Below, in pieces: positions 25,602 to 63,889 of a stretch of 64,000 nucleotides of DNA. Source of the DNA: Pelosinus sp. UFO1. GTDB lineage: Bacteria > Bacillota > Negativicutes > DSM-13327. Each line of letters begins with the position of its first letter. The first letter of the stretch is position 1. The DNA lies in assembly GCF_000725345.1 (NCBI RefSeq), contig NZ_CP008852.1, positions 4,270,001 to 4,334,000 on the forward strand, given 5' to 3'. The position numbers were made by a program, and so were the translations under genes. The notes below the pieces were generated by a model. That model was not told the DNA's origin. It saw nothing but the letters and a program-made list of their open reading frames with translations, and did no database searches.

Positions 25602-25910
25602 TTAACGACCGCTATTTTTGCTGAAGCAATCGCGGCAATATACAGGACGATCGCTGCTTGGACGGAAAGGCACTTGTGTTTCTACACCGCAAGCTGCACA
25701 AGTTACATCATGCATTTCGCGTTGTGGACGAGCGCCACCACGGTTGAAGCTGCCACCGCCATTATTTCTTTGTTTGCGAGCTGCACGGCATTGTGGGCAA
25801 CGGCCAGGCTCATTAGTGAAACCTTTTTCGTTGTAAAATTCTTGTTCTGAAGCTGAGAACACGAATTCTGCGTTACATTCGCGGCATGTTAAATTTTTGT
25901 CTTGAACCAT
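25602..25910 (-). CDS. Double zinc-ribbon protein, paralog 1
   Basis: A 102-residue soluble protein with two four-Cys zinc ribbons: TCREC...RCPQC (residues about 9-40) and TCAAC...YCRDC (about 70-97), joined by a Gly/Arg/Asn-rich linker. The same family is often labelled a zinc-binding or cytochrome c551-like protein in databases, but there is no CxxCH haem site. A paralog with the same layout is at 63292. The start at 25910 follows GGGGGACT; a longer frame opens at 25928. It has its own promoter and about 120 bases of leader. Function unknown; nucleic-acid binding is possible. Confidence 0.8.
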   Translation of the reverse strand: MVQDKNLTCRECNAEFVFSASEQEFYNEKGFTNEPGRCPQCRAARKQRNNGGGSFNRGGARPQREMHDVTCAACGVETQVPFRPSSDRPVYCRDCFSKNSGR

Positions 25911-26038
25911 TGTGATAGTCCCCCTCAAATTTTATGGCCCAAAATGGTTTAGGGTTCACTACTGTCCTTACCAAAAACCTACTTGAGAAGGATATATAAT
26001 GGAATCTCACTAGACCTATTTAGATGGGCTCAATCATT

Positions 26039-57166: not shown

Positions 57167-57697
57167 TTAGTTAGAATTTGGTTCAATTAAACCATATCTT
57201 CCATCCTTACGACGATACACTACATTAACTTCTTCTGATGTAGCATCCCTAAAGACGTAGAAATCATGATTGATCAAATTCATCTGTAAAATAGCTTCTT
57301 CTGTATCCATCGGTTTAACAGCGAACCGTTTGGTTCTTACGACCTGTAGTTCATCTGTTTCTGACGGTGCAGTCGCCGCAACTAATTCCCCTTTGAAAAC
57401 TCCAGCTTTCAGTCTACGGGAAATTTTGGTTTTATATTTTTCAATCTGTTTTTCAATCTTGTCAACAACAAGATCAATAGAAGTATACATATCAGCAGTA
57501 GCTTCTTCGCCTCTGAGAATCATACCATTAATAGGTACGGTTAGTTCTATAATGTGACGACCCTTTTCTACAGCTAAGACAGCTGTAATCTCGCCTAGAG
57601 TATGGAAGTATTTTGTAATTTTACTGGTGCGCTTTACTACGTAATCCTTTAGTGCTGGTGTAATTTCGATATTTTTGCCTCGTACAGTGATTGCCAT
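57167..57697 (-). CDS. hpf: Ribosome hibernation promoting factor, long form
   Basis: Pairs idle ribosomes into 100S particles in stationary phase. N-terminal S30AE domain (MAITVRGKNIEITPALKDYV with KTSKI; AVLAVEKGRHIIELTV) to about residue 100, a linker, then the C-terminal dimerisation domain (RFAVKPMDTEEAILQMNLINHDF with YVFRD). 176 residues, the long Firmicutes form. A frame opens at 57742, but the AAGGAG site points to 57697. Upstream of secA, as usual. Confidence 0.95.
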   Translation of the reverse strand: MAITVRGKNIEITPALKDYVVKRTSKITKYFHTLGEITAVLAVEKGRHIIELTVPINGMILRGEEATADMYTSIDLVVDKIEKQIEKYKTKISRRLKAGVFKGELVAATAPSETDELQVVRTKRFAVKPMDTEEAILQMNLINHDFYVFRDATSEEVNVVYRRKDGRYGLIEPNSN

Positions 57698-57851
57698 AAT
57701 CGCCCATCTCCTTCCAGTGTCTATATAAGTATTATTCTCCATATTAACAATAAAATCCTTTATGAATTTTAATTATTTTAAAAATTAAATCATATTACAA
57801 TAACCTACTTATTCATTCCTAATTAAGAGAAATCTGTAAGGTGGGATACGT

Positions 57852-60125: not shown

Positions 60126-60902
60126 TTATTGAGGTTTTTTCCCAAACCATTTCATGTAAATCTTTTCGTACTCGCCATTTTTTTTCAGTTCATCTAAAGC
60201 TTTATTCACTTTTTCAGCTAATTCTGTGTTTTTCTTGGTTACTGCCATACCATATTCTTCTGCATTCATAATATCGCCAACTAGCTTGGCATTTTTTTCG
60301 CCGCTTTTTGTTAAATAATATTCATTTACTGGTAAGTCATTCACTACTGCGTCTACCCCACCAGCTTTAAGTTCCATGTAAGCTTCTGAGTTACTATTGT
60401 ACTCTCTTACATTAGCATCTTTTATTTTTCTAGCTTCTTCAGCGCCTGTAGTACCAATCTGTACAGCAATTTTTTTGCCTTCTAAGTCTTTGAAACTCTT
60501 GATCGTAGTATTATCGCTCTTAACTACAATAGACAAGCCTGATTTATAGTAAGGTTTAGAAAAAGCAATCTTTTTGCTACGTTCTTCTGTAATACTCATA
60601 CCAGAAACAATCATATCAATATTGCCTGCTTCTAGAGCAGGAATCAAACCATCAAAACCGATATTCTGAATTTCTGTTTCATAACCCATTTGTTTTGCAA
60701 CTGCCCGTGCTAAATCCATGTCAAAGCCAACATATTCTTTATTGCCTTCCTCTTGAAATTCAAAAGGCGGAAATGTCATTTCAGCACCAATCTTAAGTAC
60801 CTTCGCTTTTCCCGTATCAGCAGCCTTTTGACCACAGCCAACTAACCCCAAAGATAGTAGGAAAATTCCTACAACAAGTAAGCTCATCATTTTCTTAGAC
60901 AA
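60126..60902 (-). CDS. Amino acid ABC transporter substrate-binding lipoprotein 1
   Basis: Family 3 solute-binding protein. Lipobox VGCG at about residue 23, then the domain with GFDMDLARAVAKQMG, VSGMSITEERSKKIAFSKPYYKSG and AVQIGTTGAEEARKI. 258 residues, TTG start behind GGGGAGG. Closest of three paralogs to the permease. Unlike the other two it lacks a clear TTGACT promoter. Its ligand pocket text differs slightly from genes 2 and 3, so the three may bind different ligands or share one permease. Confidence 0.93.
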   Translation of the reverse strand: MSKKMMSLLVVGIFLLSLGLVGCGQKAADTGKAKVLKIGAEMTFPPFEFQEEGNKEYVGFDMDLARAVAKQMGYETEIQNIGFDGLIPALEAGNIDMIVSGMSITEERSKKIAFSKPYYKSGLSIVVKSDNTTIKSFKDLEGKKIAVQIGTTGAEEARKIKDANVREYNSNSEAYMELKAGGVDAVVNDLPVNEYYLTKSGEKNAKLVGDIMNAEEYGMAVTKKNTELAEKVNKALDELKKNGEYEKIYMKWFGKKPQ

Positions 60903-60974
60903 CCAAAAAACCTCCCCATAACTCTCTATTTATTTTCCCTATATCATTTTACATCTTTTTGCCAAATCATCAAG

Positions 60975-61045
60975 TGTTTTGTATTGAAAAAGTAGTACAA
61001 AGTTAAAATTCGTAGAGGAAAAGCTTGAACCGCAAAGACACGAAG
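60975..61045. repeat. Duplicated intergenic segment, copy 2
   Basis: Matches 59945-60015 including the approach to the family A left arm. Confidence 0.75.
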
Positions 61046-61056
61046 GACACAAAGGG
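61027..61056. repeat. Left half of a family A unit
   Basis: AACCGCAAAGACACGAAGGA then CACAAAGGGGG, without a right arm. Confidence 0.75.
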
Positions 61057-61075
61057 GGTTATTTATACTTTTTTT

Positions 61076-61157
61076 AACCGCAGAGGTGCAGAGAGCACAG
61101 AGAAGGGATTGATAGAGTTAAAAAATTCTCCTCTGCGTACTCTGTGCCTCTGCGGTT
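61076..61157. repeat. Family B palindromic repeat unit
   Basis: AACCGCAGAGGTGCAGAGAG opposite a GTACTCTGTGCCTCTGCGGTT arm. Loop almost the same as 59857-59930. Confidence 0.85.
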
Positions 61158-61194
61158 AGTTATTTTCCCCTCGCCTTTTTCTAAAAAACACAAA

Positions 61195-61235
61195 AAGCAC
61201 AGGCGAGCTTCATATTCTGAAACCCGCCTGTGCTT
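61195..61235 (-). terminator. Terminator of binding-protein gene 2
   Basis: AAGCACAGGCG / CGCCTGTGCTT, 11 perfect pairs, followed by TTTGTGTTTTTT on the minus strand. Confidence 0.88.
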
Positions 61236-61262
61236 ATTCTCTCATTTAACACAATTCTATTA

Positions 61263-62033
61263 CTAAGGTTTTTTGCCAAACCATTTTACATAGATTTTTT
61301 CGTATTCGCCATTCTTCTTAAGTTCATCGATGGCTTTGTCTATCTGAGTGGCTAATTCTTTGTTCTTGCCAGAAGCAGCGATACCATAATCTTCAGCAGT
61401 CAGCGGCTCGCCGACCATTTTAGCATCTTTGCCGCCTGCTTTTGCAATGTAGTATTCATTAACTGGTTTATCATTGACAACAGCATCCACACCGCCAGCC
61501 TTAAGTTCTAAAAAAGCTTCAGGAGCACTGTTAAACTCGCGAATTTGCGCATTTTTCACTTTTTTCGCTTCATCAGCACCAGTAGTACCGATTTGAACAG
61601 CGATTTTTTTGCCTTCTAAATCATTAAAGGTTTTAATGGAATTGTTATCAGTTTTGACCACCATAGTTAAGCCAGATTTATAGTAAGGTTTTGAAAAGCT
61701 AACCTTTTTTGCTCTTTCTTCTGTGATTGTCATAGCGGAAATCGCTACATCAATATTATTTGCTTCCAGAGCAGGAATAAGTCCATCGAAACCCATATTT
61801 TGAATTTGAACTTCAGCTCCCATCTGTTTACCTATAGCTTTAATTAAATCAATATCAAAGCCAACATATTCTTTTGTACCTTCATCTTGGAACTCAAAAG
61901 GAGCAAAAGCTGCTTCTGAACCAACTTTAAGAACTTTTGCAGGCTTAGCAGCCTCTTGTTTGCCACAACCTACCAAACCCAAGGATAAAATAAATACTCC
62001 CACAATGAACAAACTCATTATTTTTTTAGACAT
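61263..62033 (-). CDS. Amino acid ABC transporter substrate-binding lipoprotein 2
   Basis: Paralog of the flanking binding proteins, with lipobox VGCG, GFDIDLIKAIGKQMG, ISAMTITEERAKKVSFSKPYY and the same AVQIGTTGADEAKKV block. 256 residues from the ATG at 62033 (GGGGGAAGGAATA before it); a frame opening at 62099 would start in the promoter region. It has its own promoter and terminator, so it can be expressed apart from the permease. Confidence 0.93.
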   Translation of the reverse strand: MSKKIMSLFIVGVFILSLGLVGCGKQEAAKPAKVLKVGSEAAFAPFEFQDEGTKEYVGFDIDLIKAIGKQMGAEVQIQNMGFDGLIPALEANNIDVAISAMTITEERAKKVSFSKPYYKSGLTMVVKTDNNSIKTFNDLEGKKIAVQIGTTGADEAKKVKNAQIREFNSAPEAFLELKAGGVDAVVNDKPVNEYYIAKAGGKDAKMVGEPLTAEDYGIAASGKNKELATQIDKAIDELKKNGEYEKIYVKWFGKKP

Positions 62034-62079
62034 TATTCCTTCCCCCTCAACTCTTTCTTGTAATCTTGTAATGTTAATA

Positions 62080-62109
62080 ATTATACATACTACCCGCATA
62101 ATTAGTCAA
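62080..62109 (-). promoter_or_regulatory. Promoter of binding-protein gene 2
   Basis: TTGACT, 18 bases, TATAAT on the minus strand, the same boxes and spacing as gene 3. Confidence 0.7.
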
Positions 62110-62134
62110 CGTTTTTTTGAAAATTTATAAGAAA

Positions 62135-62160
62135 AAGAACTCGGTTTTCACCAAGTTCTT
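62135..62160 (-). terminator. Terminator of binding-protein gene 3
   Basis: AAGAACTxGG / CCxAGTTCTT hairpin, then TTTTTCTTAT on the minus strand. Confidence 0.8.
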
Positions 62161-62186
62161 CAATGTATACAGAATACTTTATATTA

Positions 62187-62960
62187 TTAATTCCCTGGTT
62201 TTTTACCAAACCATTTTACGTATATTTTCTCATATTCGCCATTCTTTTTAATCTCTTCCAGTGCCTTATCTAGTTTGCCTGCTAACTCTGTATTCTTCTT
62301 AGCAACAGCAATACCATATTCTTCTGCTTGCTGAGGCTCGCCAACAGCTTTGGCATCTTTACTACCTGATTTTGCAATATAGTATTCATTTACAGGTTTG
62401 TCATTCACTACGGCATCCACGCCACCTGCTTTTAATTCCATGAAAGCTTCTGGTGCATTATTAAATTCACGAACCTGAGCATCCTTAATTTTCTTAGCTT
62501 CTGTTGCACCTGTTGTACCGATCTGTACAGCAATTTTCTTACCCTCTAGATCTTTGAAACTTTTGATCGCGGTATTATCGTTTTTCACTACAATTGTTAA
62601 GCCAGATTGATAATAAGGTTTGGTAAAATTAACTTTTTGGCTTCTAGCATCAGTAATCGTCATACCAGCAATAGCTACATCAATACTGTTAACTTCTAGA
62701 CCTGGGATCAATCCATCAAAATTCATATTTTGAATTTGTACTTCATACCCCATCTGTTTACCAAGTGCTTTTATCAAATCTACATCAAAGCCAACATACT
62801 CTTTTGATTTTTCATCTTGAAACTCAAAAGGCGCAAACCCTGCATCCGTACCCACCTTTAACACCTTAGCAGTAGTTGCTGCATCTTTGCCACACCCAAC
62901 TAAACCAAATGATGCGATAAGCACCATTAACATTATCAACGACATAATCTTCTTCGACAT
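62187..62960 (-). CDS. Amino acid ABC transporter substrate-binding lipoprotein 3
   Basis: Third tandem paralog, 257 residues. Lipobox VGCG; GFDVDLIKALGKQMG, IAGMTITDARSQKVNFTKPYYQSG and AVQIGTTGATEAKKI. It is closer to gene 2 than to gene 1 in the loops read by eye. AGGAGG lies before the ATG. First gene of the cluster in the direction of transcription, with its own strong promoter. Confidence 0.93.
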   Translation of the reverse strand: MSKKIMSLIMLMVLIASFGLVGCGKDAATTAKVLKVGTDAGFAPFEFQDEKSKEYVGFDVDLIKALGKQMGYEVQIQNMNFDGLIPGLEVNSIDVAIAGMTITDARSQKVNFTKPYYQSGLTIVVKNDNTAIKSFKDLEGKKIAVQIGTTGATEAKKIKDAQVREFNNAPEAFMELKAGGVDAVVNDKPVNEYYIAKSGSKDAKAVGEPQQAEEYGIAVAKKNTELAGKLDKALEEIKKNGEYEKIYVKWFGKKPGN

Positions 62961-63100: not shown

Positions 63101-63115
63101 ACGGATTAGGATACT

Positions 63116-63197
63116 AACCACAGAGGCGCAGAGGACACAGAGAAGAGATAGATAGGATGAAAGACTCCCTCATCGCACTCTGCGCCTCTGCGGTTAA
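63116..63197. repeat. Family B palindromic repeat unit
   Basis: AACCACAGAGGCGCAGAGG opposite a GCACTCTGCGCCTCTGCGGTT arm. Confidence 0.85.
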
Positions 63198-63252: not shown

Positions 63253-63276
63253 GCTCGGATGATTTCTCATCCGAGC
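63253..63276 (-). terminator. Terminator of the second zinc-ribbon gene
   Basis: GCTCGGATGA / TCATCCGAGC, 10 perfect pairs, followed by six T on the minus strand. Confidence 0.9.
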
Positions 63277-63291
63277 AGCATTACATATTTA

Positions 63292-63582
63292 TTATCTTTG
63301 AGCGGCAAAACATTCGCGACAGTAAACCGGTCTATCATTACGAGGTTTAAATGGTACTTGTGTGGTTATTCCACATCCGGCACAAATTACCTCATGCATT
63401 TCACGTTGCGTTGTTTGACGATCCCCACCATCGCGACTACGTTTTTTAGCATCACGGCACTCGCGACAACGTGCAGGCTCATTTTCAAATCCCTTTTCCT
63501 CATAAAACTCTTGTTCCCCTACCGTAAACACGAAATCTACGCCACAGTCTTTACACTTTAGAGTTTTGTCCTGAAAAGCCAT
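63292..63582 (-). CDS. Double zinc-ribbon protein, paralog 2
   Basis: 96 residues, same plan as 25602-25910: CKDC...CREC (residues about 10-42) and CAGC...CREC (about 66-92), with the shared EQEFYEEKGFENEPARC and RPVYCREC blocks. The linker is shorter and lacks the Gly-rich part. GGTGAGGGGA before the ATG at 63582 sets the start. The transcript would begin at a strong promoter (63861-63889) and carry a long folded leader (63600-63854). Function unknown. Confidence 0.82.
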   Translation of the reverse strand: MAFQDKTLKCKDCGVDFVFTVGEQEFYEEKGFENEPARCRECRDAKKRSRDGGDRQTTQREMHEVICAGCGITTQVPFKPRNDRPVYCRECFAAQR

Positions 63583-63599: not shown

Positions 63600-63854
63600 C
63601 TTTGTGAATTTTAAGGACCACACTGCTTAGCTGACCTGGTCTTTGCCCCCACACCCGCCTGCTGGAAGGTTCGCTAATAAGAATTCAATCTCCTCACTAC
63701 TGCCACTCTCGAATCTAGCTGACGTAGCTAATAACTCGGCAGGACTTACCCCTAAACCGCACCATGCTCAGAGCCACTTTGGACTCCTTATGTGGATCGT
63801 TTCGCCTGCGACTGGCCTCGACTTTCAACCACAGACCTAAGCAATAGGTTCTTA
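63600..63854 (-). ncRNA. Long structured leader RNA, possibly raiA-type
   Basis: About 255 bases, GC-richer than the surroundings and without a credible reading frame, directly after a consensus promoter. On the minus strand: TGTGG / CCACA closing stem, a CTGCC / GGCAG stem around TAGCT-acgtc-AGCTA, and conserved-looking single strands such as GGGGTAAGTCC and GAGGAGATTGAATTC. The nearby hpf (raiA) gene and the position fit the raiA RNA motif of Firmicutes; this identity is from memory and unproven. Other possibilities are a riboswitch or an independent RNA. Confidence 0.55.
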
Positions 63855-63860
63855 TGTTAT

Positions 63861-63889
63861 AGTATAGGTTTTTTTATAGGTAAATGCAA
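63861..63889 (-). promoter_or_regulatory. Promoter of the structured RNA / zinc-ribbon transcript
   Basis: TTGCAT, 17 bases, TATACT on the minus strand, in an A/T-rich surrounding. Confidence 0.75.

Follow-up and report, generated by a model that had tools for sequence, protein, structure and literature searches.

The raiA RNA, also named ModT, is abundant, stable, SigA-driven and trans-acting, and in C. difficile it affects the transition to stationary phase (PMC11706538). In some clostridia few RNAs are more abundant, and its structure has been solved: the fold is compact and monomeric (PMC11751092, PMC12286853), with two pseudoknots and a tertiary core seen by cryo-EM (PMC11751092). The published tests of trans function were done in clostridia (PMC11706538). 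The neighbours reported for it are comFC on the upstream side (74%) and raiA/hpf on the downstream side (66%), and gene neighbourhood has been judged a poor guide to the function of the RNA (PMC11706538).

Here we describe a raiA RNA near the end of a 64,000-nucleotide stretch of the Pelosinus sp. UFO1 chromosome, hereafter the window. The next gene, very probably on the same transcript, encodes a small zinc-finger protein. The pairing recurs in relatives, and such a recurring partner gene offers a specific protein candidate as binder or effector of the RNA. The features of the locus are collected in Table 1.

Table 1. Features of the raiA locus and of related elements in the window
Feature	Position	Strand	Basis or remark
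Sigma-A/sigma-70-type promoter TTGCAT-N17-TATACT	63861..63889	-	Sequence match; similar box in relatives
raiA (ModT) RNA, RF03072, full length	63622..63845	-	cmscan 186.6 bits; curated gathering cut-off 101.3 bits
Linker of 39 nt, raiA to zinc-finger start codon	63583..63621	-	Length conserved, no terminator, P1 extension
Zinc-finger gene, 96 aa, two treble-clef zinc fingers, subfamily I	63292..63582	-	Pfam, NCBIfam, tree, AlphaFold
Intrinsic terminator, 10-bp stem and T6, closing the raiA-zinc-finger unit	63253..63276	-	
Gene for the ribosome-hibernation protein (hpf/raiA), some 5.9 kb downstream	57167..57742	-	Pfam PF02482 and PF16321
secA	56483-53964	-	Downstream of raiA RNA
prfB	53644-52664	-	Downstream of raiA RNA
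Zinc-finger paralog, subfamily II, unlinked to raiA	25602..25910	-	NCBIfam, tree, sequence
Unannotated leader before the subfamily II paralog	25911..26031	-	CCUUCUCAA complementary to its Shine-Dalgarno UUUGAGGGGG

Identity and setting of the RNA

An Rfam scan of the window end matched RF03072 from model position 1 to 209, without truncation and with an E value of 4e-49, far over the gathering cut-off, and the RNA is raiA. The match is the only one in a genome-wide search, and the genus' other genomes, among those having a raiA, give similarly strong matches. The G+C content of the raiA part is 52%, against 40% for the window. A SigA-type promoter stands immediately 5' of the RNA, and about 255 nt of RNA lie between it and the zinc-finger gene; taken alone the promoter match is weak evidence, and in many families a TTGCxx-N17-TATAAT-type box precedes raiA at a near-constant distance. 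Minimum-energy folding of the leader was tried as evidence for an RNA and dropped as uninformative (z = 0.23, no better than shuffles). Because the folding energy is no better than that of shuffles, the RNA is identified by the covariance model and not by its stems.

The sequence-only reading of this DNA had pointed to the promoter, to some 255 non-coding bases with G+C above the surroundings, and to hpf, secA and prfB downstream, and had guessed at raiA. All of this is borne out, the three genes lying on raiA's strand, and the Rfam model search that it proposed returned the full-length match. Its other thought, that the RNA may be new, is overturned by the same match. A 65-aa open frame on the opposite strand might be cited for a coding gene in the interval; set against the covariance match and the equally strong matches elsewhere in the genus, the chance that the interval is a coding gene, or a new RNA in place of raiA, is next to nil.

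The window raiA is thus an ordinary member of a known RNA family. It resembles the published RNA in its full-length match, sigma-A-type promoter, raised G+C, single copy, and hpf and secA downstream. It is unlike the published RNA in that the next gene is the zinc-finger gene, very probably in the same transcription unit, and in that the upstream gene encodes a TPR protein, not ComFC. Between raiA and hpf there are a cold-shock gene and a cluster of genes for amino-acid ABC transport. The separation of hpf from raiA by this cluster had been singled out as of interest. The cluster does lie between them, but since hpf is found about 0.5-5.4 kb 3' of raiA in those relatives where hpf was located, the distance is ordinary.

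Two further observations concern this part of the window. Three adjacent paralogous genes for amino-acid ABC substrate-binding proteins (60126-62960, minus strand) lie between raiA and the permease and ATPase genes. A dispersed intergenic repeat, ACCACAGAGGCGCAGAG..CTCTGCGCCTCTG, has copies at 63115-63196, about 25524, 38916, 53847, 56938, 57856 and other positions, and the copy at 63115-63196 is an inverted repeat with 19-nt arms.

Pairing of raiA with a zinc-finger gene

How widespread is the pairing? We searched for raiA in the window's family, in 151 genomes of its class and in 300 of its phylum, fetched the loci and read the downstream gene. The zinc-finger gene lies within 150 nt 3' of raiA in 61 of 103 genomes, representing 31 of the 43 sampled raiA-bearing families. 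The linker is mostly 33-42 nt; larger values come, among others, from copies of a short raiA form, described below, in which the match stops early, and from a small number of longer linkers. The remaining 12 of the 43 families have raiA without the gene, some of those loci lying at contig ends, and in a few loci counted as lacking the gene the sequence stops shortly past raiA. Pelosinus fermentans, P. propionicus, Sporomusa malonica and Anaerospora hongkongensis all carry the pair. The link to a zinc-ribbon gene, raised earlier as a point of interest, is therefore real and conserved, though common across families and not peculiar to this genome. We found no mention of it in the raiA literature covered, which does not extend to Soares 2024 and Weinberg 2017, two primary papers on raiA neighbourhoods, and its novelty is provisional.

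Searches were also begun from the protein. Of its 80 closest relatives among records of named genomes, 16 have raiA just upstream. In the class-wide protein search, 56 genomes have a best match of at least 150 bits, and all of these matches, judged by comparing coordinates, adjoin raiA except in G047 and G139, where the contig ends at raiA. Class genomes with an unlinked raiA have weaker, paralogous zinc-finger matches or none. A protein family tree separates two subfamilies, I and II, and places 66 of 67 raiA-linked rows in subfamily I; the tree has a midpoint root and few columns, and its deepest split is weakly supported. One family, f11, has kept a subfamily I gene without raiA.

Since raiA stands alone in 12 families and the gene in f11, neither partner strictly needs the other. 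This independence speaks for a reading in which a conserved strong promoter simply drives both on a shared transcript with no functional link. Against such a reading are the near-constant linker, the near-exclusive pairing with subfamily I, and the recurrence in 31 families with differing upstream genes, which in the loci inspected were read from sequence as flagellar, glycosyltransferase and others. The pairing also persists where the RNA has shrunk, and we consider the absence of any functional link quite improbable.

As to the length of the RNA itself, short raiA matches in G041 and G139 were considered as true truncations and set aside, as a stretch of N and the end of a contig account for them. 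In the window's own class, genome G015 has a shortened raiA of about 105 nt before the zinc-finger gene (L222). This deletion looks real and is unlike that of the short form in other families; G015 is the sole genome of its family sampled.

A probable shared transcription unit

The gene begins with the ATG at 63582 and encodes a CxxC-rich product. The linker holds a Shine-Dalgarno sequence, AAGGTGAGGGG, at 63602-63592, and its first bases, GGTCCTT, are able to extend helix P1 by pairing with AAGAACC at the 5' end of raiA. The linker is too short to hold a further promoter beyond the RNA. None of 56 loci with the pair has a terminator-like hairpin in the linker, and in 54 of them a terminator comes soon after the zinc-finger gene. 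Of the 39 raiA copies that lack the gene, 24 are followed by a terminator no more than 150 nt away, and several more lead straight into T-rich sequence. In a sister genus (G001) the zinc-finger gene is absent, and CTCGGATGAGAAATCATCCGAG-T6 stands 28 nt after raiA; this hairpin matches the one that follows the zinc-finger gene in the window. It looks, from the sequences, as if the gene had been lost in G001 from between raiA and a shared terminator, with raiA retained. Together these arrangements make it very probable that raiA and the zinc-finger gene share one transcript. In the window, minus-strand positions 63889-63253 would then form one unit of promoter, raiA, linker with ribosome-binding site, zinc-finger gene and terminator.

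The zinc-finger protein and a proposed mechanism

The 96-aa protein belongs to the zf_Tbcl family. It matches PF13451 and PF23477, both over the curated cut-offs (81.9 against 24 and 71.7 against 27 bits), as well as TIGR04272 (74.8 against 36 bits), and the PF23477 region is also NCBI's CxxC-x17-CxxC domain. The closest relatives are Pelosinus proteins at 91-93%. An AlphaFold model has two hairpin-plus-helix units (pLDDT 82.9), and the pI of 7.5 is not notably basic. A Foldseek search with the model gave no match under E 0.1. Among solved structures none is convincingly like the protein; the only matches, of C2H2 type and LIM type, share its cysteine spacing by sequence. A weak match (E 1.9) to one chain in 9znf, a Methanosarcina ribosome entry, was dropped, the entry being absent from the follow-up sequence search. 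A literature search for the function of PF13451 or TIGR04272 found no papers. The near-neutral pI and the want of a convincing structural relative count against the explanation proposed next, as does the occurrence of either partner alone.

What might the pair do? We think it fairly likely that the best explanation overall is one transcript that yields both the raiA RNA and the zinc-finger mRNA, with the protein taking part in the same process as the RNA. By analogy with clostridia, the raiA part would be released, or would accumulate, as a stable and abundant RNA with a trans-acting role at a growth transition, and trans action of raiA in this genus is on that analogy a good probability. The full-length transcript would supply the zinc-finger mRNA, and for that reason we propose that protein output may be tied to raiA transcription, possibly to the folding of P1. 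The protein would most likely take part in that process too, perhaps by binding nucleic acid as a partner of the RNA, and on the functional partnership of RNA and protein we lean towards acceptance. The OLE RNA and OapA, which form an RNP (PMC11706538), are a further case of a large structured RNA working with a protein, and serve here by analogy only. In many relatives P1 is extended by the pairing of AAGAACC with a GGTTCTT-like sequence, followed by a short U-rich run. Speculatively, the extended helix and U-rich run could act as a weak conditional terminator that sets the level of read-through.

Short raiA forms and possible leader control

Two families outside the class, f69 and f122, have a mini-raiA of about 110-120 nt that scores 39-59 bits, with none over the Rfam cut-off, and that occurs in 8 of 9 and 11 of 13 of their genomes, respectively. 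The same zinc-finger gene follows in 19 of 19 loci, and the linker and ribosome-binding site are similar there. The alignment has an invariant 5' domain, CTTAGGTCTGTGGTTGAAAGTCGA, and 3' P1 strand, ACCAGGTCAGCTAAG, around a variable middle, without the core that full raiA has at its centre. Mini-raiA marks out what the RNA retains beside the zinc-finger gene, and from the alignment we read it as the part needed there. A second leader class of the zinc-finger gene, group B, is 110 nt long and keeps a P1-like helix and GCCGCGGGC.

Do these short leaders mean that raiA acts, or at first acted, in cis as a riboswitch-like leader that controls the zinc-finger gene, its trans role being secondary or later? 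Mini-raiA, which lacks the core and precedes the gene at every one of its loci, and group B both speak for such a view, and Rfam types raiA as cis-reg. Leaders of subfamily II genes, moreover, are often complementary to their own ribosome-binding sites, so that control by a leader seems a habit of this gene family. We compared each leader with its own Shine-Dalgarno sequence and counted it if the complementarity was reached in at most 5 of 100 shuffles. Unselected subfamily II leaders did so in 25 of 59 cases, against about 3 expected. A group chosen partly by its motif (H-type) reached 23 of 29, a figure that is partly circular because the motif itself was used in the selection, and therefore the unselected set is the fair test.

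The raiA leaders have no such excess (3 of 64), nor do other subfamily I leaders (2 of 29). Neither form of expression platform that a riboswitch or attenuator would use was found at the raiA loci: there is no excess complementarity of the kind that would sequester the Shine-Dalgarno sequence (3 of 64), and no terminator in the linker (0 of 56). In addition, raiA is retained in genomes without a linked gene, and the C. difficile phenotypes were restored by complementation in trans (PMC11706538). The gene downstream of raiA in C. difficile is a different one (PMC11706538), and for that reason the lineages that bear the pair fall outside the published evidence against a cis role. Weighing these points, we regard a primarily cis-acting raiA as unlikely, and prefer the explanation of one transcript that yields a trans-acting RNA and the mRNA of a protein in the same process.

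A more tentative proposal, to which we would give somewhat less than an even chance, takes raiA and the subfamily I protein as one functional module. raiA may have evolved as, or may still be, the 5' leader of the gene, with the protein acting with or through the RNA. Lineages that have lost the gene, possibly the studied clostridia among them, would then keep only the trans-acting half of the module, and the mini-raiA lineages only the leader half.

Leaders of subfamily II genes

The subfamily II leaders and raiA are alike in that both follow a promoter, precede genes that are paralogs of each other and are putatively structured; they differ in that complementarity to the Shine-Dalgarno sequence is a property of the former and not of raiA. 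No subfamily II leader that was scanned, that of the window included, matched an Rfam model over threshold. The CCUUCUCAA element has two alternative pairing partners, a GGGAAG-type strand further downstream and the Shine-Dalgarno sequence UUUGAGGAGG, in the window leader as well as in L193, L194, L199, L207, L208, L218, many of L242-L274, L121 and L139. Many copies of the leader with this element also have a GCCCA/UGGGC outer helix. From its alternative pairings the leader looks like a translational switch.

Clostridia MAGs have further distinct leaders of 100-130 nt before subfamily II genes (several of L104-L161, for example L110, L127, L106 and L130). Several of these carry CCUCC-type elements complementary to the Shine-Dalgarno sequence, and the examples scanned had no Rfam match. 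Right after the promoter of some subfamily II genes (L205, L240, L247, L262 and L266) there is a palindrome, for example AATCAATAATATTACT..AGTAATATTATTGATT, which from its position is a possible operator.
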